Shown here: piece by piece, positions 1 through 17,515 of the stretch
Numbering within the stretch: position 1 is the stretch's first letter
How the letters are laid out: the number at the start of each line of letters is the position of its first letter
From: a virus
DNA length: 25,022 nucleotides
Virus record (IMG/VR): IMGVR_UViG_3300036985_002072
Span: 1 to 25,022 of that record
Direction: 5' to 3' (one strand)
Made by a program: the position numbers and the translations under genes
The notes under the pieces: model-generated
The model's database searches: none
What the model was told of the DNA's origin: nothing
The model's input: the letters and a program-made list of their open reading frames with translations, nothing else

Positions 1-30
1 GTTCACGGTGTCGGTCTTCATCAGAGTCAT
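1..30 (-). CDS. 5' end of a gene running off the left edge
   Basis: Only ten codons are visible (MTLMKTDTVN), so no function can be given. The start is supported by the phage's own start module: minus-strand AAGGGACTGACC directly precedes the ATG, as before the other early genes. It lacks the covarying ribosome-site stem seen at seven of those genes. It starts 19 bases after the stop of the RecE-like nuclease gene and is probably co-transcribed with it. Confidence 0.7.
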   Translation of the reverse strand, partial: MTLMKTDTVN

Positions 31-49
31 GGTCAGTCCCTTCTTGCGG

Positions 50-877
50 TCAGTCGTTGCCAAGCCACCAACGCGGCGGCTCAAGTTCCTGAATGGTCAG
101 CGCGTAGCCCGTGCGGTCGCCCTCGGCGACCTGCCACCAACGCTCGACCAGTTCGTCGATGCGGCGGTCGGCGGTCTCGATAGCGTGGAACGGCAGGCGG
201 TACACGGCCGTGAGGTACGGCGCTTTCTTCTCGACGGCGATGATGATGAAGTCATCCATCACGCCGACATTCTGCTCGACGAGGCGGCGATAGAACGCGG
301 CTTGGTGGAAGTACCCGAACTTCGCGGCGCTCGCGCCGAAGTCGCGCGGCGAGGCTGACTCGGTGGTCTTGACATCGAGGACGATGCACGCGCCTGCGAG
401 GCGCACGATGCCGTCCACCTTGGCCTTGGCGGGGCGGCCGCCGATGTCGCCGATGATAGTGATCTCGCGCTCCGAGAGCGTGTTGAGCAGCGGTGCAGCA
501 GCAGGGTTCTCACGCACGGCCTGCGCCATCGCAGTCGCCTGTTGCACGAGCGGCCGCGTGATGATCCGCGCGCCCGAGAGTCCGGCGCGACGCTGCGCGC
601 TATCCCACTCGGCCTTGCCTTCCTTCGTGCGACGGTCGATGTCGCCGAGCGCGATGAAGTTGGTCGCGATCGACTCGGGGTCGAGAAGCAGAGCGTGGAG
701 ATACGCTCCGAGGGTGAATGCGTCGGTCTCCTCACGCGGGGTCTCGCGCTCGGCAGCAAGGTGCGCGTTCGTTCCGTTGAGCAGGGTCTTCGTTCCGCTG
801 CTGCTCGGAAGGTCGATGGCGAAGTACTCGGTATCAGGCAGGCGGTGGAGTCCTGCGGGTGGGTGTGCTACACTCAT
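50..877 (-). CDS. RecE-like PD-(D/E)XK exonuclease (exodeoxyribonuclease VIII type)
   Basis: 275 aa. The layout matches the PDDEXK-like domain of phage RecE-type exonucleases, which resect dsDNA 5' ends and load a single-strand annealing protein. Seen: a GAYLHALLLDPE segment near residues 57-68 (the family's G-x-x-x-H-x-L-L-x-P region, H61), the nuclease core with D155 in AKVDGIV and D168-x-K170 in VLDVKTTES, and a downstream helix GYFHQAAFYRR (Q192, Y196) typical of RecB-type nuclease motifs. The ATG is preceded by GAAAGGATCTGACCCC, which supplies the ribosome site without the stem found elsewhere. No RecT-like annealing partner is visible in the window; it could lie further left. The role in phage recombination or replication is inferred from the family. 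Confidence 0.85.
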   Translation of the reverse strand: MSVAHPPAGLHRLPDTEYFAIDLPSSSGTKTLLNGTNAHLAAERETPREETDAFTLGAYLHALLLDPESIATNFIALGDIDRRTKEGKAEWDSAQRRAGLSGARIITRPLVQQATAMAQAVRENPAAAPLLNTLSEREITIIGDIGGRPAKAKVDGIVRLAGACIVLDVKTTESASPRDFGASAAKFGYFHQAAFYRRLVEQNVGVMDDFIIIAVEKKAPYLTAVYRLPFHAIETADRRIDELVERWWQVAEGDRTGYALTIQELEPPRWWLGND

Positions 878-934
878 GGGGTCAGATCCTTTCTCCCCTC
901 GGCCCTGCGAAAGCGAGGTCGGGGGGATTCTCCT

Positions 935-1213
935 TCAGGCCGTCTCGGTCTCGGTCTGGTCAGCCGCAACGCGCGGCTTCTTGAACTGAATGGGCTTGGG
1001 GTCGTTCGCACGCTCCTCGATGAAGTCACGCACGCTCGGGTTGTGCTTGCAGTAGAAGTCAATTAGCACATCGATCGTCGCGGTTCGACTGCGACGGCCT
1101 GCGAGGCAGAGCGCGTCGAGTCGCCATTTCGTCTTGCCGCCGACGCAGATCGTCTCGTGAATTCGTGGCTTGGTTCGCAGGCGTGGGGTCGAGTCAGTTT
1201 CGGTAGTCATCAT
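935..1213 (-). CDS. Small ribbon-helix-helix-like protein (candidate DNA-binding regulator)
   Basis: 92 aa from the first of two tandem ATGs; the second is at 1210. A GAG-containing ribosome site lies 6-8 bases upstream, and a longer reading would start inside a strong hairpin. The central part (residues 19-57) fits a ribbon-helix-helix fold: a short strand (HETICVGG), helix A (KTKWRLDALCLAG), a turn (RRS) and helix B (RTATIDVLIDFYCKHNP). The C-terminal third is charged and polar. Arc/MetJ/CopG-type proteins bind palindromic operators as dimers, so this is the best candidate in the window to bind the CCACA-N2-TGTGG sites, but nothing in the sequence proves it. It lies between the DUF932 and exonuclease genes. 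It could instead be an uncharacterised accessory protein. Confidence 0.55.
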   Translation of the reverse strand: MMTTETDSTPRLRTKPRIHETICVGGKTKWRLDALCLAGRRSRTATIDVLIDFYCKHNPSVRDFIEERANDPKPIQFKKPRVAADQTETETA

Positions 1214-1238
1214 CGTTCTCGGTTGAGGTGCGAAAGCA

Positions 1239-1275
1239 GCCTCGGCATGGGGTCGGGTGCTCCCCATGCCGAGGC
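1239..1275 (-). terminator. Strong 14-bp hairpin between DUF932 and RHH-like genes
   Basis: Perfect inverted repeat: GCCTCGGCATGGGG at 1239-1252 pairs with CCCCATGCCGAGGC at 1262-1275 around a 9-base loop. It starts 14 bases after the stop of the DUF932 gene in minus-strand direction. No U-tract follows, so it is not a textbook intrinsic terminator. It may act as a partial terminator, a 3'-end stabiliser or a processing site. Confidence 0.55.
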
Positions 1276-1288
1276 CGCGTGTGGTGGA

Positions 1289-2284
1289 TCAGACGAGGGC
1301 GAGCGCCTTGCTCATCACGGCGCGCTTTGCGTCACCGTACACTCCGAAGAGATCGGCGTTGACGCGCGCGTCACCCTTCAGGTAGCCACGGTGGAACTGG
1401 ATGTAGTTCGTCGCGGCGTTGGCGGCGACCCAAGCGGTCGCGCCGAACTGGCTCGCCTCGCGGTCGAAGACGCGCGACATATCGGCGAGCGCATCGACGG
1501 CTTTCTGCTTGCGGCGCGCCTCTTGCTCGGTGCGGGGGTTGGCCTCAATCTTGCCGTCGAGCGCGACGAGCACATCAACCCACAGGCTCTGAATCTCGTC
1601 GCGGGTGAGCGGCTTGGCGGCGAGCGCCTCCATCGCCTCGCCTTCAGCGCGAGCGGCGATGCCGTAGGTCGCGAGAGCAGCCTTGATGTCATCGACGCGC
1701 AGCGCGAGGCCCGAGGTATGTCGCCAACGGTACGCGGCCTTGCTCGCAGAGCCGAGCGCCATTGTCAGGGTGTTGTTACAGACAACACGGACGGAGGTCG
1801 GCATCGCGGTCGCCGACATCGTGCCGTCGTGCGCGTTGGCGAGCAGGATGTACTGCTCGACGATGTCGCCCTTGTGTGAGATGTCGAGCGTGTTGGTGTG
1901 CAGCAGGAAGAACACCTTGCGGCCGCCGAAGAGGCTGCCTGCGGTCTCGACGCGCGCGCTGCCTTGCGAGCCGAGGCTCGTGGCGATCTCGGCGAGCGTG
2001 CTGTTCTGAAGCACCGAGTAGTCCGCGCCGACCGTCGAGAGGATCGACTGGTCATCGCTGCGGCGAAGCGTCTTGTGCGACTCGACGATGGCGCGCTCGG
2101 CGTTGCCGTCGTTGCCGACGAAGCAGGCGGTGAGCGAGGTCGATTCTTCGACCGTCCAGTTCAGGCGGCCGATGGTCAGCGCCTCGGCGGGGGTGACGGT
2201 GTCGGGGAGGATATGCCCGAGGCCGTGCCATGCGGAGGTCTTGGCGAGGACGAGAGAGTCGTTGGAGCGAATTTCGTGAGCCAT
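1289..2284 (-). CDS. DUF932 family phage/plasmid-like protein
   Basis: 331 aa, a usual length for the DUF932 (phage/plasmid-like, TIGR03299-type) family, whose biochemical role is not established. Family landmarks seen: WHGLG near residue 19, VGADYSVLQNSTL near residue 85, LFGGRKVFFLL, LLANAHDGTMSATAMPTSVRVVCNNTL in the middle, and NYIQFHRGYLKGD near the C-terminus. DUF932 genes are common in phages and plasmids beside recombination or replication genes, which fits the RecE-like nuclease downstream. The ATG has the start module CCCGAAAGGACTGACTGCA with a GTCC/GGAC ribosome-site stem. It is the first gene after the operator-containing promoter at 2352-2379, and transcription probably continues to the left edge. 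Confidence 0.88.
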   Translation of the reverse strand: MAHEIRSNDSLVLAKTSAWHGLGHILPDTVTPAEALTIGRLNWTVEESTSLTACFVGNDGNAERAIVESHKTLRRSDDQSILSTVGADYSVLQNSTLAEIATSLGSQGSARVETAGSLFGGRKVFFLLHTNTLDISHKGDIVEQYILLANAHDGTMSATAMPTSVRVVCNNTLTMALGSASKAAYRWRHTSGLALRVDDIKAALATYGIAARAEGEAMEALAAKPLTRDEIQSLWVDVLVALDGKIEANPRTEQEARRKQKAVDALADMSRVFDREASQFGATAWVAANAATNYIQFHRGYLKGDARVNADLFGVYGDAKRAVMSKALALV

Positions 2285-2292
2285 TGCAGTCA

Positions 2293-2305
2293 GTCCTTTC
2301 GGGAC
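2293..2305 (-). promoter_or_regulatory. Ribosome-site hairpin of the DUF932 gene
   Basis: On the minus strand GTCC-CGAAA-GGAC forms a small stem. The Shine-Dalgarno AAAGGA spans the loop and 3' arm. Other genes keep the loop but have different, still complementary arms. Confidence 0.65.
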
Positions 2306-2351
2306 GGGGTTCTGATGTCACCTCGGCGGAAGTGCCTCGGCTGACGGTGCG

Positions 2352-2379
2352 ATCTTACAACCACAAATGTGGCAGGCAA
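2352..2379 (-). promoter_or_regulatory. Promoter with internal palindromic operator, driving the DUF932 gene
   Basis: Minus-strand -35 TTGCCT and -10 TAAGAT are separated by 16 bp. The spacer contains the operator CCACATTTGTGG (plus-strand CCACAAATGTGG at 2361-2372; arms CCACA/TGTGG). A repressor bound there would block polymerase directly. An A-rich box, GATCTTGTGAAAAATC, lies upstream and is nearly repeated at the 6271-6298 promoter. Confidence 0.7.
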
Positions 2380-2397
2380 GGAAAGTGGGGAGATTTT

Positions 2398-2493
2398 TCA
2401 CAAGATCGCTGCGAGTGTCCACAGGATGGCGAAGAGCGCAGCGATGGTGAGCATTCCGCAGATCAGGTCGGTGGTGGTCGGTTCGTCGTTCAC
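2398..2493 (-). CDS. 31-aa single-pass membrane microprotein
   Basis: GTG start overlapping the stop of the zinc-ribbon gene (GTGA), with AAGGA six bases upstream. The product has a short acidic N-terminus (MNDEPTTTD) followed by a hydrophobic run from about residue 10 to the end (LICGMLTIAALFAILWTLAAIL), long enough to span a membrane once. It is the third member of a GTGA-coupled chain. Function is not recognised. Tiny phage membrane peptides can act in lysis timing, superinfection exclusion or inhibition of host membrane enzymes, but none is indicated here. The stop lies 19 bases upstream of the -35 of the next promoter. Support comes from overlap, ribosome site and composition, not homology. 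Confidence 0.55.
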   Translation of the reverse strand: MNDEPTTTDLICGMLTIAALFAILWTLAAIL

Positions 2494-2717
2494 GGGAGTT
2501 CCTTGCGGCAAGTGCCGCAGCAGAGGCGGGGTTCAATGTTGTCGATCGAGAAGATCGCGCCGACTGGGTTGCCGTAGCGGTCATCGAGATTCTCGGGCAG
2601 GCCGTTCAGGTCGGTGGTCGGGCGACCCGCGAGGGTCAGCCGTCCCCCCGCGTGCGCGGTTTTGGCGCACGCGGGGCAATGCAGGTCGGCTTCGTAGGTG
2701 TAGGCGATGACTCTCAC
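2490..2717 (-). CDS. Small zinc-ribbon-like protein
   Basis: 75 aa from a GTG overlapping the previous stop (GTGA), which indicates translational coupling to the 173-aa gene. Two CxxC knuckles are visible, C14/C17 (HCPAC) and C67/C70 (CGTC), separated by a mostly polar segment with DDRYGNPVGAIFSIDN. This four-Cys arrangement is typical of a zinc ribbon. Small zinc-ribbon proteins are common in phage early regions and are often of unknown function. The codons around CPACAKTAHAGG also form a perfect 12-bp DNA/RNA hairpin at 2646-2676. The C-terminus RKELP runs directly into the start of the membrane microprotein gene. Confidence 0.75.
   Translation of the reverse strand: MRVIAYTYEADLHCPACAKTAHAGGRLTLAGRPTTDLNGLPENLDDRYGNPVGAIFSIDNIEPRLCCGTCRKELP
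2646..2676 (-). other. Perfect 12-bp hairpin inside the zinc-ribbon gene
   Basis: CCCCGCGTGCGC at 2646-2657 pairs fully with 2665-2676 around a 7-base loop. It lies over the codons of the first zinc knuckle. It could affect translation, mRNA stability or transcription of the coupled genes, or be a by-product of GC-rich codons. Confidence 0.5.
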
Positions 2718-3235
2718 GCGACACCTGCCTCGACGAGTACACGCTCGGCGTACTGGCGCAACTGGGTCACAGATTCGGGCGAGTACGCGGCCTCGATCGA
2801 CGCGAAGTTGCGCATCAGGTACGCGAGGAAACGGGCCTGCTTGCCTGACCAGTCGGTAGGGAGCGTGCCTTCCCGCGCATAGCGCAGGTCGGCGAGGTAG
2901 CGGGTGACGAGGTCGTGCAGGGGCTTGCGCACCGAGAGGGCCGAGACGCGGGTGTCGGCGTTGCCGTAGCGGTCGGTGATCTCCTCGCGGTTGTAGAACC
3001 GATCGGCCGTAACGTTCTGACGCAGATCGGCCTTGCAGATGTCGAACAGGTCGTTGAGCAGGGTGTTCGCCACGCTTTCACACATGGCGGTCTTGAGGAT
3101 CCAATGGCTGATGCCGCTCGCCTCCTCGCAGGCGGATAGCAGCGTCGAGGTCTCGGACGAGAGTGTCCACTTGCATCGCTCGGCGAGGTGGTTGCGGACG
3201 GCGTGATCGAAAAGGGCGGTCGCGATGATTGTCAT
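2714..3235 (-). CDS. Hypothetical protein, 173 aa, mainly helical
   Basis: The start at 3235 is chosen because it carries the phage's start module (GGTTCACGAAAGGAACCTGACC then ATG). The longer frame to 3409 runs back through a GC hairpin and has no ribosome site. The protein is soluble and probably mostly alpha-helical, with three cysteines in the first half (around C21, C36, C52). The second half is rich in charged helices (REEITDRYGNADTRVSALSVRK). I recognise no family. It is the first gene of a three-gene chain coupled by GTGA overlaps, ahead of the zinc-ribbon and membrane microprotein genes, and follows the 77-aa gene across a strong hairpin. Transcription probably starts at the promoter at 3596-3623. 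Confidence 0.75.
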   Translation of the reverse strand: MTIIATALFDHAVRNHLAERCKWTLSSETSTLLSACEEASGISHWILKTAMCESVANTLLNDLFDICKADLRQNVTADRFYNREEITDRYGNADTRVSALSVRKPLHDLVTRYLADLRYAREGTLPTDWSGKQARFLAYLMRNFASIEAAYSPESVTQLRQYAERVLVEAGVA

Positions 3236-3240
3236 GGTCA

Positions 3241-3257
3241 GGTTCCTTTCGTGAACC
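3241..3257 (-). promoter_or_regulatory. Ribosome-site hairpin of the 173-aa gene
   Basis: Minus-strand GGTTC-ACGAAAG-GAACC: 5-bp complementary arms around the shared CGAAAG loop, followed by CTGACC-ATG. The Shine-Dalgarno AAAGGA spans the loop and the start of the 3' arm. Confidence 0.7.
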
Positions 3258-3286
3258 GAGGTGTTGTCCTGCAACGGAGCAGGCGG

Positions 3287-3314
3287 GTGCGCCCCCATTG
3301 CTTGGGGGGCGCAC
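3287..3314 (-). terminator. GC-rich hairpin between the 77-aa and 173-aa genes
   Basis: GTGCGCCCCC at 3287-3296 pairs perfectly with 3305-3314 around an 8-base loop, 13 bases after the stop of the 77-aa gene (minus direction). No U-tract follows. Since no promoter is visible before the next gene, it may attenuate rather than end transcription, or mark an RNA-processing point. Confidence 0.5.
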
Positions 3315-3327
3315 GGCGCGCGAGCCG

Positions 3328-3561
3328 TCAGCGAGTGATGTAGTTTCCGAACACTTCGGCGGCGGTCTTGAGGATGCGCGTAGCGCGCTCGGATTGCGTG
3401 CAGTTGCATCGCTTCATTCCGTTGCGTGCTGCGCAGGCGCGCTCGGCGGCCTCATCGAACTCCTCGGGGCCGACATTCGGGCCGCAAGCGTCGTAGGTAG
3501 CCTGTTCCAGTTGCGCGAGCCAGTCTGCGTTGGTGTTGGTGATGTCGTTGGGGCTTTTCAT
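3328..3561 (-). CDS. Hypothetical Cys-containing protein, 77 aa
   Basis: The start at 3561 (MKSPND) is chosen over the longer frame because it carries the start module (CGCGAAAGGATCACGACC then ATG) and lies downstream of a good promoter. The longer frame would begin upstream of that promoter. Four cysteines are visible (C26 in DACGPN, C43 in ERACAAR, C52 and C54 in KRCNC). The last pair resembles half of a metal-binding knuckle, but no complete known motif is present. No family is recognised. It is the first gene after the operator-containing promoter at 3596-3623, so it should be among the genes most directly controlled by it. Confidence 0.72.
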   Translation of the reverse strand: MKSPNDITNTNADWLAQLEQATYDACGPNVGPEEFDEAAERACAARNGMKRCNCTQSERATRILKTAAEVFGNYITR

Positions 3562-3566
3562 GGTCG

Positions 3567-3583
3567 TGATCCTTTCGCGATCA
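3567..3583 (-). promoter_or_regulatory. Ribosome-site hairpin of the 77-aa gene
   Basis: Minus-strand TGATC-GCGAAAG-GATCA: 5-bp arms around the shared CGAAAG loop. The arm sequence differs from every other copy but stays complementary. Confidence 0.7.
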
Positions 3584-3595
3584 GGTGATACCGAG

Positions 3596-3623
3596 AGTAT
3601 GCTACCACAAATGTGGTTGTCAA
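3596..3623 (-). promoter_or_regulatory. Promoter with internal palindromic operator, driving the 77-aa gene
   Basis: Minus-strand -35 TTGACA (full consensus) and -10 CATACT with a 16-bp spacer holding ACCACATTTGTGGT (plus-strand 3604-3617). This is the clearest promoter in the window. It probably drives the 77-aa, 173-aa, zinc-ribbon and membrane microprotein genes. Confidence 0.78.
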
Positions 3624-3641
3624 GTCGATGTTCGAAGATTT

Positions 3642-4445
3642 TCAGAGATTGAGGACGGTGCATGTTCCGAGGTGAGGGTGGTAGTTGGGCAGCACCGCGC
3701 GGATGATTGGATTCCCGTCTTCCTCGACGCGGTAGATTGTGGTTTGCGCTGCGAGCAGCGCATTCGCGAGGGCGACAATCTTCTGCTCGGTGGTAAGCCC
3801 AAGCAGCGCACGGAAGATCGGCTCCGTTCCGCTTTCTGCGCCTGCGTTCTTCTCGGTGTGCGGCGCGGAGCCGAGGCTGTTGGTGCAGACGATGCGCGAG
3901 TAGCCGCCGATCTGAACTTGCTTGCTGTCATCGTGCGAGTCAACGGCGCGGAACTCGGGCGCAGGCCCGATGATAGTAGTCGCGGCGCGCTCGGCCTCGA
4001 CGGCCGTGGCCGCGCGGTCGAGTTCGGCGTACCACTCGCGCGCCCTGCGCCGCAGCGCCTCGGCATTAGCCTGCACCTTGCGCTCGGCGCGTTCCTGCTT
4101 CGCCTGCTTCGCCGCCTTGGTCGGCTCGCTCAAGGCGAGCGGCACGCGCAGGCTCCGAGCGTTCCACGAGGCCGAGTTCGCGATACGCTTGAACAGGTTG
4201 CGGATCGCGGTGAGCCGCGTGTGGCCTTCCGCATAGCAGTACAGGCAGTCAATGTCACACTTCGCGGTGAAGATCGGGGTCTCCCAACGGTAGCCTGCCT
4301 TGCGCGTGTACCGAACCCCAGTCGTGATGTGGAGGGTCTTGAACTCGGCAGGCGGACACACCGTGTTTCCGAGGGAGCGCGGCGCATACGCGGCGAGGGT
4401 GTCGAGCGCGGACTGGATCGTGGCAAGGTTGTCGTTGGTAAGCAT
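3642..4445 (-). CDS. Hypothetical protein, 267 aa, with a Cys cluster and possible HicB-like N-terminal segment
   Basis: The start at 4445 (MLTNDNLATI) is chosen because it carries the start module; nine upstream codons of the longer frame overlap the ribosome-site hairpin. Around residues 55-90 is WETPIFTAKCDIDC followed by LYCYAEGHTRLTAIRNLF. The cysteines C63, C67 and C70 happen to fit C-x3-C-x2-C, but no other radical-SAM feature is present. The segment reads better as a strand-strand-helix unit like HicB-type domains (acidic-Cys, then GxT, then an amphipathic helix). Residues 105-150 are a highly charged Lys/Arg/Ala/Glu helix or coiled coil. The C-terminal part is mixed. No family assignment is secure. 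Confidence 0.72.
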   Translation of the reverse strand: MLTNDNLATIQSALDTLAAYAPRSLGNTVCPPAEFKTLHITTGVRYTRKAGYRWETPIFTAKCDIDCLYCYAEGHTRLTAIRNLFKRIANSASWNARSLRVPLALSEPTKAAKQAKQERAERKVQANAEALRRRAREWYAELDRAATAVEAERAATTIIGPAPEFRAVDSHDDSKQVQIGGYSRIVCTNSLGSAPHTEKNAGAESGTEPIFRALLGLTTEQKIVALANALLAAQTTIYRVEEDGNPIIRAVLPNYHPHLGTCTVLNL

Positions 4446-4449
4446 GGTC

Positions 4450-4464
4450 AGCCCTTTCGTGGCT
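4450..4464 (-). promoter_or_regulatory. Ribosome-site hairpin of the 267-aa gene
   Basis: Minus-strand AGCC-ACGAAAG-GGCT followed by GACC-ATG. Here the 3' arm is GGGCT rather than GGAnn, and the 5' arm has changed to match, which is a compensatory difference. Confidence 0.68.
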
Positions 4465-4467
4465 TGG

Positions 4468-4485
4468 GTCACCGTAATTGGTGAC
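4468..4485 (-). promoter_or_regulatory. Upstream leader hairpin of the 267-aa gene
   Basis: Minus-strand GTCACC-AATTAC-GGTGAC: a 6-bp stem and 6-base loop between the predicted transcription start and the ribosome-site hairpin. The 305-aa gene has the same arrangement at 5532-5549 with different stem bases. Confidence 0.5.
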
Positions 4486-4491
4486 AGGATC

Positions 4492-4531
4492 AGTATCGGT
4501 CGGATTCGATGAGGTGCAACAGAAATGTGGT
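4492..4531 (-). promoter_or_regulatory. Promoter and degenerate operator upstream of the 267-aa gene
   Basis: Minus-strand -35 TTGCAC and -10 GATACT with a 16-bp spacer. The operator-like sequence ACCACATTTCTGTT (plus-strand 4518-4531) abuts and overlaps the -35 on its upstream side instead of lying in the spacer. One arm (CCACA) is intact and the other is degenerate. Confidence 0.6.
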
Positions 4532-4552
4532 AAGATTGTCGAAGATCGTGTT

Positions 4553-4575
4553 ATGGGGCGGTCGCATCGCCCCAT
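4553..4575 (-). terminator. Hairpin after the 305-aa gene
   Basis: ATGGGGCG at 4553-4560 pairs with CGCCCCAT at 4568-4575 around a 7-base loop. It lies 15 bases after the stop of the 305-aa gene and before the next promoter. It is terminator-like in position but lacks a U-tract. Confidence 0.5.
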
Positions 4576-4590
4576 GCCACGAAAGGATGG

Positions 4591-5508
4591 TCAGGTGTTA
4601 TCGCGCGCCTCGGTCAGAGCCGAGGACGCGAGCCGAGGCAGGTGGTCGAGGACGAGCATCATCAGGGAGGCGGTCAGGGTCGCACGGGCGCGCTTCGCCT
4701 GCTCGGGGGTGAGCGGGGTCTGATCGAAGGTCAGGTCATCGCGGCCGAGGACGGAGTCGAGGAACGCGGGATCGAAGTCCACGGCATGGGCCGCCTTCGG
4801 CGCGTCCTCGGCACGAGGTTCCCAAGTGCATTCGCAGTCGGAGGTGGAACCGCTGACCGCCGACTCGGGGAAGAAGTCGATGCGCACACCCGACCCGCCG
4901 CACCGCTCGCAGTCGTGATCGGGTTCGGCCTCGTGCTGCGCCTCGGTCTCGCCGATGTCGCAGGCATCGTCGCCCTCGGCAAGGCAGGTGGCTTCGGTGA
5001 TGTCGAACCCATCCTGCATCGGATCCCAATCGAACTGCGCGGTGTTGCCGAGGTGATCGGCGAGGTAGATCGTGACTGGGGACTCCGCGCCCTCGCGGTG
5101 TTCGGCTGCGCAATCAAGGCCAAGGTCGAGCATCGCCTTGATGACTGAAGATCCGTGGCCGAATGCGCCATATACGCAGCCACGAGATTTTGACTCCGTC
5201 CACGCCATCGTGGCCGCGTCACGAATCTCGTACAGGTCATCGTCGGTCGCGATGGTGGAGCGGGTGTCCTCGACCTCGACGGCGATCTCCTCGACGCGCT
5301 GCGCGCCGCGCCATCCCGTGATGTCCTTCGCGACCTCCATCGCGGCTTCGAAGGTGTCGAACACGAGCGCCTCGCCCTTCACGCGGGTGGTCTCGGTCGA
5401 GACGGTCGCCGCGTGCCGCGAGAAGATGCGGTTGGCGGGGACATCGCACTTGACGAGGTAGATCGGGGTCGCGGGGCAGAGGGCGATGATGAAACGGGTC
5501 GCGAGCAT
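4591..5508 (-). CDS. Hypothetical protein, 305 aa, with a DnaJ-like Cys knuckle
   Basis: The ATG at 5508 has the start module (CAGTCACGAAAGGACTGACCC). No whole-protein family is recognised. Visible elements are an N-terminal region with alternating strands (RFIIALCPATPIYLVKCDVP), an acidic middle (about residues 80-200), and C200-ERC203-GGSG followed by a CEC pair at C225 and C227. CxxCxGxG is the repeat unit of the DnaJ zinc-binding region, and single copies occur in many phage proteins as small zinc knuckles. The C-terminal 60 residues are helical (LTPEQAKRARATL). It is transcribed alone from the promoter at 5556-5596 and is followed by a hairpin. A zinc-binding regulatory or nucleic-acid-associated role is possible but not shown. 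Confidence 0.75.
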   Translation of the reverse strand: MLATRFIIALCPATPIYLVKCDVPANRIFSRHAATVSTETTRVKGEALVFDTFEAAMEVAKDITGWRGAQRVEEIAVEVEDTRSTIATDDDLYEIRDAATMAWTESKSRGCVYGAFGHGSSVIKAMLDLGLDCAAEHREGAESPVTIYLADHLGNTAQFDWDPMQDGFDITEATCLAEGDDACDIGETEAQHEAEPDHDCERCGGSGVRIDFFPESAVSGSTSDCECTWEPRAEDAPKAAHAVDFDPAFLDSVLGRDDLTFDQTPLTPEQAKRARATLTASLMMLVLDHLPRLASSALTEARDNT

Positions 5509-5512
5509 GGGT

Positions 5513-5529
5513 CAGTCCTTTCGTGACTG
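5513..5529 (-). promoter_or_regulatory. Ribosome-site hairpin of the 305-aa gene
   Basis: Minus-strand CAGTC-ACGAAAG-GACTG: 5-bp arms around the shared loop, followed by ACCC-ATG. Confidence 0.7.
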
Positions 5530-5531
5530 GG

Positions 5532-5549
5532 GTCAGCGGCATTGCTGAC
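5532..5549 (-). promoter_or_regulatory. Upstream leader hairpin of the 305-aa gene
   Basis: Minus-strand GTCAGC-AATGCC-GCTGAC: a 6-bp stem and 6-base loop directly upstream of the ribosome-site hairpin, parallel to the one at 4468-4485. Confidence 0.5.
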
Positions 5550-5555
5550 AAGGTG

Positions 5556-5596
5556 AGAGTAGGTCGGGTTCCGAGGGAGTCAACAGAAATGTGGTG
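5556..5596 (-). promoter_or_regulatory. Promoter and degenerate operator upstream of the 305-aa gene
   Basis: Minus-strand -35 TTGACT and weak -10 TACTCT with a 16-bp spacer. The operator-like CACCACATTTCTGTT (plus-strand about 5582-5596) lies immediately upstream of and overlapping the -35, with the same degenerate arm as the site at 4518-4531. Confidence 0.57.
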
Positions 5597-5638
5597 AGAA
5601 TGTTGGAGATCGTGTTATCGGGTGTCGGTCACCCGCAG

Positions 5639-5662
5639 CCCCCCCGCACGAATGCGGGAGGG
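5639..5662 (-). terminator. GC-rich hairpin after the 114-aa gene
   Basis: CCCGCA at 5643-5648 pairs with TGCGGG at 5653-5658 around a CGAA loop, extended by C/G pairs after one mismatch. It lies between the 114-aa gene's stop and the next promoter. No U-tract follows. Confidence 0.45.
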
Positions 5663-5681
5663 TTGGCGGAGGATCGGCAGG

Positions 5682-6026
5682 TCAGCGGCGCTTGCGGCGA
5701 GCGAGCGCACGGTCGCGAGCCTCGATGGCCGCCTTGCGCAGGTAATAGACGATGCTGTCGGTGTCGCTCGCGAACTGGTCGGTCGCGAGCGTGATCAGCC
5801 GGATCTGTCCGACGATCTCGGCGTAGACCGCGTTGATGTCTGCGATCTTGCCCTCCGCGCCGAAGTGCCACAGGTGACGGATGGCTGACTCGATCCGGTC
5901 GAGCATGATCGTGATCAGGGCCGAGCCATCGACGCGGACGGGGACGGTAAAGGTCGCGGGAGATACGCCCGTGTTGGCGCTGTAGGTGACGGTCGTGACA
6001 GGGTGGATGGTGTCGTTGGTGAGCAT
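5682..6026 (-). CDS. Hypothetical protein, 114 aa
   Basis: ATG at 6026 with the start module (ATCCCGAAAGGATACCTGACCC). The N-terminal third is beta-like (VTTVTYSANTGVSPATFTVPV). The rest is helical (MLDRIESAIRHLW, IADINAVYAEIVGQIRLI) and ends in a basic tail (RALARRKRR) that could bind nucleic acid. No family is recognised. It starts with the same MLTND as the 267-aa protein, and the DNA around both starts is nearly identical, so the leader and first codons appear to be copied between genes. It is probably co-transcribed with the 55-aa gene, whose stop lies inside its ribosome-site hairpin. Confidence 0.72.
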   Translation of the reverse strand: MLTNDTIHPVTTVTYSANTGVSPATFTVPVRVDGSALITIMLDRIESAIRHLWHFGAEGKIADINAVYAEIVGQIRLITLATDQFASDTDSIVYYLRKAAIEARDRALARRKRR

Positions 6027-6035
6027 GGGTCAGGT

Positions 6036-6048
6036 ATCCTTTCGGGAT
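6036..6048 (-). promoter_or_regulatory. Ribosome-site hairpin of the 114-aa gene
   Basis: Minus-strand ATCC-CGAAA-GGAT. Its 5' arm overlaps the stop region of the 55-aa gene, so ribosomes finishing that gene would open it. Confidence 0.62.
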
Positions 6049-6215
6049 CAGCGAACAATTGGGGAAACGCGGAACACGGGTGAGAGCGTGCGGTTGGCCT
6101 TCTCAACAAGCAGGTCGTTGTACGAGCCGTAGGCGATGATCGCGTAGCCGTTACGGACGCGGTCTCCCTTGCAGATGATCAGGTTGCCGTGGCGGTCAGA
6201 CTGGAGCGTGTACAT
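6048..6215 (-). CDS. Hypothetical protein, 55 aa
   Basis: ATG at 6215 preceded by CCGAAAGGAACTGACC, the shared start module, so the short frame is credible. The product reads MYTLQSDRHGNLIICKGDRV, then a strand-rich middle (GYAIIAYGSYNDLL) and a basic C-terminus, ending SPIVR. It is compact and probably beta-rich; no family is recognised. It is the first gene of the minus-strand block after the divergent control region. Its promoter has the most symmetric operator in the window, so it and the 114-aa gene may be the most tightly controlled early genes. Confidence 0.7.
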   Translation of the reverse strand: MYTLQSDRHGNLIICKGDRVRNGYAIIAYGSYNDLLVEKANRTLSPVFRVSPIVR

Positions 6216-6222
6216 GGTCAGT

Positions 6223-6233
6223 TCCTTTCGGGA
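6223..6233 (-). promoter_or_regulatory. Minimal ribosome-site hairpin of the 55-aa gene
   Basis: Minus-strand TCC-CGAAA-GGA followed by ACTGACC-ATG. Only three base pairs, the weakest of the seven copies. A CAGCAC/GTGCTG inverted repeat at 6244-6256 lies just upstream in the same leader. Confidence 0.5.
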
Positions 6234-6270
6234 GGGGCGAGGTCAGCACCGTGCTGCTCTCGACCCCCAC

Positions 6271-6298
6271 ACAGTACACCACACTTGTGGTGATGCAA
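6271..6298 (-). promoter_or_regulatory. Divergent-region promoter with perfect palindromic operator
   Basis: Minus-strand -35 TTGCAT and -10 TACTGT with a 16-bp spacer made entirely of the operator CACCACAAGTGTGGTG (plus-strand 6277-6292; 7-bp arms, 2-base centre). The upstream A-rich box (GATCTGCAAGAAAAATC) resembles that of the 2352-2379 promoter. Confidence 0.7.
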
Positions 6299-6323
6299 AC
6301 CATTCTTCGGATTTTTCTTGCAG

Positions 6324-6337
6324 ATCGCTTGAGCGAT
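6324..6337. repeat. Palindrome in the divergent control region
   Basis: ATCGCT-TG-AGCGAT, 6-bp perfect arms with a 2-base centre, unrelated in sequence to the CCACA operator. It lies between the minus promoter and the small terminase gene and could bind a second regulator. Confidence 0.4.
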
Positions 6338-6339
6338 TC

Positions 6340-6377
6340 TTCCAAGTTGTCCACAAGTGCCGTAGGATGTGGTGGTT
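6340..6377 (+). promoter_or_regulatory. Possible late promoter of the small terminase, with operator half-sites
   Basis: TTCCAA (6340-6345) and TAGGAT (6363-6368) are 17 bp apart, a weak match to -35/-10. The same stretch holds CCACAAGTG at 6351-6359 and TGTGG at 6368-6372, matching half-sites of the early operator. If the promoter is real, the mRNA would begin almost at the ATG (leaderless). If not, AGGA at 6364-6367 could serve as ribosome site on a longer transcript. Confidence 0.3.
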
Positions 6378-6827
6378 ATGGCAAAGCAACTTCCTGCAAC
6401 AATTTTGTTCGACACCCTGCCCGAGAGCGTGGAACCGCCCGCAATGGCTGATAAGCGTGAGCGACAGATGGCCGTTTGGCTCGACACCGTGGGGGCGGGA
6501 GGGTGGCGGGCGGCCTGCGATGCGGCGGGTGTGAGCGATGCGCAGGTGCATCGGTGGCGCAGGATGTTCCCCGAGTTCGCCGAGAGGCACGACGCCACGA
6601 GCGCCGAGACGGCCACGCGACTAGAGGGCATCGTCGATGCCATCGCCACGGGCGAGATCGACGCGACCCCTGCACAGGTGACGCTCCTCCAGTTCCGCCT
6701 GAAGGGTCTGCGGCCCGAGGTCTACCGCGATCGTGCATCGGTGCAGGTCGATCAGCGCACCACGCTGTCGGCCGAGGTCGGGGAAGGTGGCAGGGCGCGG
6801 CTCCTGCTCGCCGAGTGGCAGGCGTGA
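6378..6827 (+). CDS. Terminase small subunit-like protein
   Basis: 149 aa from the ATG at 6378; the frame also opens with GTG codons at 6369 and 6372, but ATG is preferred. Residues about 40-75 (GGWRAACDAAGVSD followed by QVHRWRRMFPEF) form a helix-turn-helix of the kind found in phage small terminase subunits, which recognise the packaging site and regulate the large subunit. The C-terminal segment LKGLRPEVYRDRASVQVDQRTT is also typical of this group. It is first on the late strand with the large terminase next, which supports the call. There is an unusual non-coding gap of 189 bp between the two terminase genes. Identification rests on HTH plus context; the family is very divergent. Confidence 0.75.
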   Translation: MAKQLPATILFDTLPESVEPPAMADKRERQMAVWLDTVGAGGWRAACDAAGVSDAQVHRWRRMFPEFAERHDATSAETATRLEGIVDAIATGEIDATPAQVTLLQFRLKGLRPEVYRDRASVQVDQRTTLSAEVGEGGRARLLLAEWQA

Positions 6828-7016
6828 CGGCAACGGTGCAAGGCAGCGCGCACACACGCGTCACGCAGGCGGCCGCACGCACGCGCCACGCGCAGGCACG
6901 CACCCGCGTCACGCGCGCGCACCCACCCGTACACCCCCGAGCGCGCGCGCGCCCAGTACCTAGTATCTAATACCCCCCTCCCTTCTCACAGTACTGACCC
7001 CTAAATCCTTACCTAT
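6828..7016 (+). other. CACGC-rich low-complexity gap between terminase genes (candidate packaging or regulatory site)
   Basis: There is no credible gene here. CACGC occurs seven times on the plus strand between 6855 and 6914 (starts 6855, 6862, 6876, 6880, 6887, 6897, 6910). Two stretches alternate purine and pyrimidine (about 6846-6860 and 6941-6951), a pattern that can adopt Z-DNA. The right half is C-rich and then A/T-richer (TAGTATCTAATA) with AGTAC/GTACT repeats before the large terminase. Position and repetition suggest a terminase recognition site or a regulatory region. No ribosome site precedes the large terminase ATG. Confidence 0.45.
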
Positions 7017-8738
7017 ATGTCCGAAATCACACGACTGCGGAAGAAGTTCTTGGACGCAACGGGTACTGACCCCATCGCGCAGGCGGATTTCCGTGCTGCG
7101 TTTGCGGAAGACATCTGCTTGTGGTTGCGGCTGACGGGTTGGACTTACGCTCCGAAGGAGGTTGACCCCACCACGGGAAGAGACGTACCTAGTTTGAAGC
7201 CGAATCGGCCGTTTGTTTTGTGGCCGTGTCAGGAGAGGGCGGTGAAGGAGGTGATCGATGCTGTCGGCGATGGTCGTGATGTGGTGGTTCGGAAGAGCCG
7301 CGACATGGGCGCGAGTTGGCTGTTGGCTGCGGTCGCGGGGTGGGGATGGCTTTTCAAGGGCTGGCAGGCGTTGTTGGTCAGCCGTGTGGAGGATGGTGTT
7401 GATCGCCCCGGCGATCCTGACAGCCTGATGTGGAAGGTGGACTTCCTTCTTCAGAGTCAGCCGCCTTGGTTGCTTCCGGGGGTTGCGGACGAGTTGCTTC
7501 GGCGTGGTTCGGACACTCGTCAGCACATGATGCTGCGGAACCCGCTGTCGGGGGCGACGATTGCGGGTCAGGCGAGTACTGCCCATGTCGGCCGTGGTGG
7601 CCGTAGAACCCTGATTTTGTTTGATGAGTTTGCGTCTATGGGGGAGGCCGAGGCTGCTTGGCGGTCTGCGGCGGATGCTTCGGCGTGTCGGATTGCTGTG
7701 AGTACCCCTCTTGGGAGCGGAACCCAGTACTCGACGCTGGTACGGATGGCTCGGACGCAGGGGGATCCGAGGCTGGTGGAGTTGCTGTACACGGAGCATC
7801 CGTTCAAGGGTGCTGGTGCGGAGACTCGGGTGGATGTGGACGGCCGGGTGACGGGGATTGCGGGGTCGGAGTTCGTGTGGACACCGTGGCTTGGGGAGCA
7901 GATGAAGCGCCGCGACACGGTGGACATGGCGCAGAATGTCTTTGCGACCGAGGTTGGTAGCGGTTCGAACTTCTTCACCCCGGGCGTGGTGACGGCGCAC
8001 GCGAATGAGTTTGCGGTGGGTGGGGAGAAGTGCGAGTTGCTCCGTGGGCGGTTCGTGGCGGATCCCCACGGGCGGTGGCGGGTGTTCCGGCACGGGGATG
8101 TTGATCGGGAATATGTGATGTTTGCGGATCCGTCGTATGGGACGGGGTCGGCGAACGCTGCGATCTGCGTGATGGACGCGGAAAACCGGGAGGTGGTGGC
8201 CGAGTTTGCTGACCCGAATGTCCCACCGCACGACTTGGCGCAGGAGATGGTGGAGGTGGCGATGACGGCCTACAAGGGTCGGCGGCTGCCGATGATCGGT
8301 TGGGAGGTCAATGGCCCGGGTGCGGCGATGCACCACGACTTCCAGCGGATCGGGTACACGGCGGTGTATCGCCAGCGGATGGTGGGAACCACGACCGAGC
8401 GGCTGACGGTTCGGTACGGCTGGAACAGCAGTCGGAGGGCGAAGCGGACGCTGCTCGGTGCGTTGAGTCGGGCGATCAGTCAGGGGACTGTTCGGATTCC
8501 GAGCGAAGAAACATTGCGGGAGATGATGGATTATGTGATACTTGAAGACGGATCGATCGAGGCCGCGTCTGTACGCGACCTAGCATCGGGCGCGCGTGAG
8601 TCTCACGGCGATCGTGTGATTGCTTGTGCTGGCGCGCTGATGCTTTGCGAGGAGGGAGTGAGTTCCGAGAACAGGGACACATCTCTTCCGAGCGAAGCAT
8701 TGGGTGTGATTCTCAAACACGACGAGGTGTTCCGATGA
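7017..8738 (+). CDS. Terminase large subunit (ATPase and nuclease)
   Basis: 573 aa, normal length. It packages DNA into the prohead and cuts it. ATPase: Walker A-type VVRKSRDMGASWL at about residues 89-101, Walker B LILFDEF at 199-205 (D203, E204), coupling motif STPLGSG at 229-235. Nuclease: RNase-H-like acidic residues D371 (MFADPSYGTG), E430 (GWEVNGPG) and D532 (HGDRVIACAGA). The N-terminal region ends with RPFVLWPCQERAV, where the adenine-binding segment is expected. The ATG at 7017 is the first start after an in-frame stop, but no Shine-Dalgarno is visible (CTTACCTAT precedes it), so initiation is unusual or the start is misplaced. The stop overlaps the next gene (ATGA). Confidence 0.95.
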   Translation: MSEITRLRKKFLDATGTDPIAQADFRAAFAEDICLWLRLTGWTYAPKEVDPTTGRDVPSLKPNRPFVLWPCQERAVKEVIDAVGDGRDVVVRKSRDMGASWLLAAVAGWGWLFKGWQALLVSRVEDGVDRPGDPDSLMWKVDFLLQSQPPWLLPGVADELLRRGSDTRQHMMLRNPLSGATIAGQASTAHVGRGGRRTLILFDEFASMGEAEAAWRSAADASACRIAVSTPLGSGTQYSTLVRMARTQGDPRLVELLYTEHPFKGAGAETRVDVDGRVTGIAGSEFVWTPWLGEQMKRRDTVDMAQNVFATEVGSGSNFFTPGVVTAHANEFAVGGEKCELLRGRFVADPHGRWRVFRHGDVDREYVMFADPSYGTGSANAAICVMDAENREVVAEFADPNVPPHDLAQEMVEVAMTAYKGRRLPMIGWEVNGPGAAMHHDFQRIGYTAVYRQRMVGTTTERLTVRYGWNSSRRAKRTLLGALSRAISQGTVRIPSEETLREMMDYVILEDGSIEAASVRDLASGARESHGDRVIACAGALMLCEEGVSSENRDTSLPSEALGVILKHDEVFR

Positions 8739-16694: not shown

Positions 16695-16709
16695 TCTGAA
16701 ACTTACTAC

Positions 16710-16739
16710 CGGGTGGCCGTGGGAAACCACGGCCACCCG
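16710..16739 (+). terminator. 13-bp GAAA-loop hairpin after the capsid genes
   Basis: CGGGTGGCCGTGG at 16710-16722 and its perfect complement at 16727-16739 around a GAAA tetraloop. It is followed by CTTCC, not a U-tract, and the next ATG is five bases away. It could be a partial terminator, a stabiliser of the capsid mRNA 3' end, or an RNase-processing site. It occupies the place where the next gene's ribosome site should be. Confidence 0.62.
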
Positions 16740-16744
16740 CTTCC

Positions 16745-17515
16745 ATGCTTACCTACGGTGGCCTTCGCCAGCACATCCTCCTCGCGCTCGGCGGCCAACC
16801 GTCGATCGTCAGCGGTGTCACGCAGAACCAGCGCATTGCCGAGATCGTCAATCAGGCTGGGAACTACCTGTTCTCCAAGCAATGGCGGTTCCGTGAGCGC
16901 ACGGGCCGCCCTGTCTCGCTGGTAGCCAATCAGAACTGGGCAGCGATGCCCGGTGATGCCGAGGAGATCATCAGCCTTGTCACAAAGGCTGGTCTCGGTT
17001 GGCGCGTCGAACTTACGAGTCCCGAGCAGATCGAACTGTTCCGCAACAGCATGGCCCCCGCGTTGCTGGACAGCGTCTACTACGCGGCTCTCTCTCGGCC
17101 GTGGGCGCAGGCAGACAATGTGACTCCTCTCGTAGCGGGGACTGCATTCCCTGCACCACGGCTCGATATCTACCCCACTCCGCAGGCGACCACGAACGAT
17201 GCCATCATCATGCGCTACCGCGCGGGATGGACGGCCGTCTCGGGCGAGACGAATGCGGTCACCCCCGACACCTACATCATCCCTGTTCCCCCGTATGTCG
17301 AGGCGCTCCTGATCGCCTACTGCCGCGCCTTCGCCGTTGCCTACGAAGACGAAGGACTGGCTGCGCGGCTGATCGAGATCGACAACGGCCCGATTTGGAA
17401 CGCGGCCGCCATCAAGGATGGCATTGCACAGAGAGACTACGGTCGCCTGAACCCCGTCCGTTCGGGTGCGTTTGTCTCCGATCCAGTTAGGTATCGCAGG
17501 GGATTCGTGCAATGA
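16745..17515 (+). CDS. Head-tail adaptor protein (gp11/gp4-like)
   Basis: 256 aa. The opening MLTYGGLRQHILLALGGQPS followed by RIAEIVNQAGNYLFSKQWRF is the arrangement seen in podovirus adaptors ('tail tubular protein A' type): an N-terminal helix, then a W-containing helix. A strand-rich core follows (LDIYPTPQATTNDAIIMRYR), then a helix with PPYVEALLIAYCRAFAVAYE. Adaptors form the ring under the portal to which the nozzle attaches, which fits the nozzle-like gene downstream. The start matches the family N-terminus, but no Shine-Dalgarno exists because a hairpin ends five bases upstream. The end overlaps the next gene (ATGA). Confidence 0.78.
   Translation: MLTYGGLRQHILLALGGQPSIVSGVTQNQRIAEIVNQAGNYLFSKQWRFRERTGRPVSLVANQNWAAMPGDAEEIISLVTKAGLGWRVELTSPEQIELFRNSMAPALLDSVYYAALSRPWAQADNVTPLVAGTAFPAPRLDIYPTPQATTNDAIIMRYRAGWTAVSGETNAVTPDTYIIPVPPYVEALLIAYCRAFAVAYEDEGLAARLIEIDNGPIWNAAAIKDGIAQRDYGRLNPVRSGAFVSDPVRYRRGFVQ

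Follow-up and report, generated by a model that had tools for sequence, protein, structure and literature searches.

Hairpins of variable sequence and conserved pairing around the ribosome-binding sites of early genes in a clade of uncultured phages

The window analyzed here is the entire 25-kb record (25,022 nucleotides) of an uncultured virus. It probably represents part of a genome, and it raises the question whether the Shine-Dalgarno (SD) sequences of a set of its genes are embedded in an RNA structure that is maintained by selection. The left part of the window contains leftward genes, including an exonuclease VIII-like gene and a DUF932 gene, and the right part contains rightward packaging and structural genes with terminase, portal, head and tail fibre matches; from this gene content, we infer that the leftward genes are early. 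A sequence-only reading had described mini-hairpins over the ribosome sites of seven minus-strand genes, with the loop CGAAA(G) and with arms that differ from gene to gene, and all seven are found where it had placed them, with the arms that it listed.

On the minus strand, with the GAAAG centre and the gene start in brackets, these hairpins are TCC-CGAAA-GGA at 6223..6233 (6229; 6215), which is weak with -1.7 kcal/mol, ATCC-CGAAA-GGAT at 6036..6048 (6043; 6026), CAGTC-ACGAAAG-GACTG at 5513..5529 (5522; 5508) with -6.5 kcal/mol, AGCC-ACGAAAG-GGCT at 4450..4464 (4458; 4445), TGATC-GCGAAAG-GATCA at 3567..3583 (3576; 3561), GGTTC-ACGAAAG-GAACC at 3241..3257 (3250; 3235), where orthologues have other arms and keep the stem, and GTCC-CGAAA-GGAC at 2293..2305 (2300; 2284), which precedes the DUF932 gene. 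The distance from GAAAG to the start is 13-17 nt. The predicted probability of the hairpin in the full leader is 0.78-0.98 for six of the seven copies (in the above order, from the second copy onwards, 0.78, 0.90, 0.88, 0.79, 0.98 and 0.87), and the energies of all seven range from -1.7 to -6.5 kcal/mol at 37 °C and are deeper at 10-20 °C. The TCC/GGA copy is predicted not to form, with a probability of 0.12 in the full leader, and taken alone it is no evidence for a hairpin. In the window only, the stem sum is 27 versus 18.0±2.9 expected, a moderate excess that is turned decisive by the relatives.

A common register was defined that counts the G of GAAAG as position 0 and starts the stem with the pairs -3:+5 and -4:+6, further pairs lying outward. 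In this register, the stem comprises 3-6 variable, complementary pairs and is followed by a TGACC-like spacer and the start. The NNGAAAG loop contains the 5' half of the SD, and the 3' half (GGA) sits in the 3' arm. The innermost two pairs (C-G, T-A) are nearly invariant, as the SD itself forms their 3' side, and the informative covariation is therefore that of the outer pairs. The loop, first described as CGAAA(G), becomes [N][C]GAAAG in the common register; loops AAGAAAG and TTGAAAG also occur, and the dinucleotide outside the SD is found as AC, CC, TC, TT, GC, AA and CT. The proposed GNRA tetraloop closed by C-G represents the usual form, as 65 of 69 elements have a C or U at position -1 that can close a GAAA tetraloop with G+4 (57 C-G, 8 U-G), but it is not invariant, with four elements unpaired there. 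Position -2 is free or forms an additional C-G pair.

The only constant loop positions are those that match the 16S tail. The constant part GAAAGGA, more loosely also the next TGA, fits the complement of an actinobacterial 16S tail (GAAAGGAGGTGATC); the conserved CTGACC spacer may be read as an extension of the SD:16S pairing. The GAAAGG-type SD and distant DUF932 relatives make an actinobacterial host likely. A pattern search found no relative of the DUF932 gene in cellular genomes, and the portal and the gene at 4591-5508 had no match in cultured phages. Cellular matches of GTTCNCGAAAGGAAC...ATG were also considered and discarded, since by a rough estimate their number does not exceed chance, with stems at background once the seed sites are removed.

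Relatives were obtained by searches of viral collections with the DUF932 protein or its alignments and by a pattern search. Nine further contigs have the same leader type (L004, L005, L028, L131, L132, L136, L137, L138 and L147, with L028 and L006 being one contig); L222 and the remainder of the L137 contig (L178) were found afterwards in another pattern search. Leaders were selected for a GAAAGG suitably spaced from a start, irrespective of pairing, resulting in 68 GAAAGG-type leaders from ten related uncultured phage contigs including the window. Stems of at least 4 bp occur in 32 of the 68 leaders, versus 12.3±2.3 after the 3' arms were re-dealt, and none of 2000 re-deals gave more than 21; the same procedure with 206 control leaders of other phages gave 3 stems versus 3.5 expected. 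In alignment A3, which contains 69 distinct elements, the covariation score was 0.251 versus 0.109±0.012 in shuffles, none of the 500 shuffles reaching it, and slid registers scored at most 0.103. An untargeted scan of all column pairs placed -5:+7, which is the predicted third base pair, at the top with an APC-corrected mutual information of 0.379, followed by 0.205 for the next pair. RNAalifold returned no consensus structure for the unselected alignment of all 69 leaders, probably due to the stemless leaders left in it, and covariation was therefore counted on the named structure with controls.

The pairing can also be followed at orthologous genes. The DUF932 gene (1289..2284, minus strand; PF06067, phrog_1221) served as reference. 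In all nine contigs compared, its leader retains the stem, for which six arm pairs are in use, namely GTC/GAC (window, L004, L132), TGTC/GACA (L136), GGTTC/GAACC (L005, L028), GCTC/GAGC (L131), TACC/GGTA (L137) and GTTC/GAAC (L147). For a second gene, the one starting at 3235 in the window, all seven leaders retain 3 bp or more, with the arms CAGTC/GACTG, CAGTTC/GAACTG, GCTC/GAGC, CTC/GAG and GGTTC/GAACC. The respective P values, 3e-5 (exact permutation) and 0.007, include identical rows and ignore relatedness. A search for covariation in related phages had been proposed as a check of the sequence-only reading, and the orthologous leaders indeed keep their pairing with changed arms; the view that compensatory changes reflect a selected RNA shape is strongly supported by the shuffles, the re-deals, the column scan and these leaders. 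At the level of sequence comparison, selection for pairing around the SD is thus shown for the early leaders of the clade.

The reading would have been undermined by complementarity being freely lost in relatives, and this does not occur inside the clade, but pairing is missing in sister phages. Stems are absent from L007, which has 70-74% identity with the window in portal and terminase and uses the same start module GAAAGGAACTGAC without the stem, and from the GC-rich L133-L135, whose DUF932 genes are about 65% identical. Because of this absence from the sisters, the SD hairpin is a clade-specific lineage trait. Most early genes with their own leader carry it and tightly coupled early genes do not; late genes, in comparisons of orthologues, have neither the module nor a conserved stem. 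It was also right that the two leftmost genes have no stem: the exonuclease VIII-like gene (50-877), which starts at 877, has the start module AGAAAGGATCTGACC at 880..894 (minus strand) without it, and all six orthologues of this gene likewise have no stem. In the leader of this gene, at about 893-930 (minus strand) and also in L004, L005, L132 and L136, a conserved large hairpin ends directly 5' of the SD. A crude comparison of SD pairing probability in early and late ORFs gave no significant difference (P=0.06) and was set aside, as it is confounded by spurious ORFs and GC-rich sequence. On the plus strand, the terminase gene start (6981-7017) has no visible SD, and the preceding CAGTACTGACCCCTAAATC is conserved in several relatives. 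Furthermore, a 13-bp hairpin with a GAAA loop (16709-16744, plus strand) ends shortly 5' of the gene at 16745, and its counterpart in L178 has different arms that are still paired (12 bp).

Beyond the clade, a wider search was seeded by one arm pair, and other phage groups retain a modest excess when judged without the seed sites. Stems occur in 5 of 19 leaders of a GC-0.49 group (L174, L185, L212) versus 0.9±0.9 expected, and in 8 of 35 leaders of a low-GC group versus 2.8±1.2 expected. The GC-0.49 group has a few late proteins in common with the window and nothing more; besides SD hairpins, its early genes have a palindrome TTCTAGGATCCTAGAA (TTCTAGTCACTAGAA in L185 and L212) just 5' of or overlapping the SD. 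The 226-kb contig L171 contains GCTCTTGAAAGGAGC start hairpins at 8333 and 8899 (minus strand) that are identical to those of L131 and L138.

The surroundings of the hairpins are also structured. By eye, some hairpin leaders are preceded by a promoter-like TTGAC...TACTNT pair and others by a strong hairpin. A second hairpin lies upstream of the SD hairpin of the gene starting at 5508 (GTCAGC-AATGCC-GCTGAC, 5532..5549, minus strand) and of the one starting at 4445 (GTCACC-AATTAC-GGTGAC, 4468..4485, minus strand). Such tandem leaders occur in the window (2293-6330, minus strand), L004, L005, L028, L131, L132 and L138, and they begin with either a strong hairpin of 10-12 bp or a promoter-like stretch, followed by a 6-8 bp hairpin (for instance GTCAGCAATGCCGCTGAC versus GTCACCAATTACGGTGAC and CCTGCTCCGTTGCAGG), ACCCC and the SD hairpin; the first two hairpins, too, seem to stay complementary despite sequence change. 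A palindrome like CCACATTTGTGG, probably a regulator site, is found in or beside the promoter-like spacers of several early genes at about 2355-2370, 3600-3615 and 6280-6295 (minus strand). After one gene, at about 4535-4585 (minus strand) and also in L004, L005, L028 and L136, there is a conserved TTCCTTTCGTGGCATGGGGCGATGCGACCGCCCCATAACACGA (ATCC... in the window), which forms an extended hairpin whose arms show a compensated change in L136; it also contains a CCTTTC to which the SD of the following gene is complementary. The corresponding anti-SD element CCTTTCGTGGC, 3' of the gene at 4591-5508, was not supported as a general regulator: pairing with the next SD in read-through RNA is predicted for three out of five phages (P about 1.0), and in L004 and L028 the values are 0.11 and 0.24, respectively. 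Its CGTG is better explained as an arm of the extended hairpin (CGTG/CACG, changed to CTTG/CAAG in L136).

The nearest known kind of element is the start-associated sequence (SAS) of actinobacteriophages, described for Cluster K mycobacteriophages (PMC3203893) and Cluster EF Microbacterium phages (PMC7302621), and the present element is a structure-conserved, sequence-variable variant of it. According to the SAS descriptions in these reports, many copies per genome lie exactly at the ribosome site of selected genes and conservation exceeds the 16S pairing, as in our clade, where the repeated element is likewise gene-oriented and placed at the ribosome site of many genes; the same descriptions give SAS position 1 and 10-13 as conserved without a 16S partner, with the function left open by the authors (PMC3203893, PMC7302621). 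In contrast, SAS arms as presented there are nearly fixed in sequence, whereas the clade hairpin arms vary freely and covary, and those descriptions propose no hairpin for SAS and find little support for RNA pairing of the ESAS repeats (PMC3203893, PMC7302621). A fixed 13-bp sequence (GGGATAGGAGCCC or GGGAAAGGACCCC) is not found in our leaders, as the arms vary between copies, nor are the 17-bp imperfect inverted repeats of ESAS, the upstream hairpins differing between leaders by inspection. In the SAS copies GGGATAGGAGCCC and GGGAAAGGACCCC, a 3-bp palindrome encloses a 7-nt loop containing the SD; most of the copies examined are GGG...CCC palindromes that have the SD looped out in this way, and a compensated change is seen in one Pixie copy (CGGATAGGAGCCG). 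Because several copies break the pair (TM4 CGG..CCC, GGG..CCA), a hairpin in SAS is only suggested. By its sequence, the clade hairpin is not an SAS. A search of positions 1-8000 with Rfam covariance models gave one chance-level match (SrbA, far below gathering) and no family, and within a partial coverage of the literature on covarying SD hairpins in phages nothing closer was found.

As to what the hairpin does, we tentatively favor, at a little under even confidence, an SD-presenting hairpin that is weaker than SD:16S pairing and would control initiation on autonomous leaders. In all leaders the hairpin energies are 0 to -7.4 kcal/mol (median -4.0) and those of the SD:anti-SD duplex -8.7 to -16.6 kcal/mol (median -10.6), the SD:16S duplex being stronger than its hairpin in every leader. 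The loop would offer the 16S 3' tail (CCUUUC) a single-stranded toehold, and pairing would then open the weak stem, the SD:anti-SD duplex being the more stable of the two. The stem would guard the SD against mispairing in GC-rich leaders with other strong hairpins, its stability would set the initiation strength for each gene, and a trans-acting regulator would be possible and not required. Against this reading stand the missing correlation between stem strength and SD strength (r=-0.02), the RNAalifold result without a consensus structure, and the fact that L007 and the GC-rich L133-L135 do without the stem. Moreover, the loop dinucleotide differs between phages (permutation p=0.0014) and each genome reuses few arm/loop versions, which pure insulation does not predict; these versions could reflect a recognising factor or module copying.

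A recognising factor is central to a translational operator, in which a phage or host RNA-binding protein would bind the bulged GAAA hairpin and repress or activate the early set. MS2 coat protein and T4 RegA are translational regulators acting on their targets, and the MS2-type coat-protein operator is, as our hairpin, small, bulged and placed over an SD, where it acts as a translation-level site; the usual form of our hairpin resembles known protein-bound operators. The operator would explain why a set of early genes has one shape in common, usually a GAAA loop closed by C-G or U-G (65 of 69) with one 5' bulge, and why the hairpin has per-genome dialects, but it appears somewhat unlikely to us, as loop bases outside the SD and stem length vary and the exonuclease gene and others have no hairpin. 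The MS2-type operator also differs in concerning one gene, instead of many with variable arms and no known binding protein, and conserved loop bases beyond the SD were not found, with -2 varying freely and -1 being C, T or A. A GGA in an apical loop, as for CsrA/RsmA, was not found either, since the GGA spans the closing pair and the 3' arm. Conservation of the loop is confined to the SD and no regulator gene was identified, so that the earlier idea of a switch by a loop-binding protein, a ribosomal feature or temperature stays conjectural. Temperature in particular would imply an RNA thermosensor with an SD opened by warming, for which the marginal stability in the window, deeper in the cold, could be adduced; it is very improbable, however, since stability varies widely among genes within one phage, half of the SD is already in the loop, and fourU or ROSE sequences are absent, the 5' arms of the leaders having no stretch of four U that would pair with the SD. 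That the modules have no RNA function and are palindromic by chance, either as start modules duplicated within the genome or as DNA operators, is given an equally small chance: identical modules do recur (CAGTTCNCGAAAGGAACTG in four other contigs), but both arms change in register, also at orthologous genes, and neither copying nor a sequence-specific DNA site gives such changes, so that the covariation contradicts this reading. A role in mRNA processing or stability, in which the hairpin and its neighbours shield the SD from an endoribonuclease or present it to one, would suit the tandem hairpins and has a precedent in T4 RegB, which cuts GGAG in early SDs and thus also marks an early gene set at the SD (PMC3014915). 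Nevertheless, it is improbable, as RegB requires an unpaired GGA and is inhibited by structure, with no covarying stem described (PMC3014915), whereas here the GA is in the stem.

As judged from the alignments, it is the shape and not the sequence of the ribosome-site hairpin that is kept by evolution; the fold matters, and its function is a proposal. The element may even be regulon-wide, with a hairpin dialect of each phage that would co-evolve with a phage or host factor and place the early set under translational control via the shape, which on the whole we consider unlikely. If it were true, the related hairpins in L174/L185/L212, in the low-GC contigs and in the 226-kb contig would represent a widespread phage device. 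SAS have been known since 2011 without a function, and the varying sequence with kept pairing described here provides direct evidence that elements of this kind can function as RNA structures. SAS therefore deserve re-examination, as a 3-bp stem would require the very end bases (position 1 and 10-13) that have been left without an explanation.
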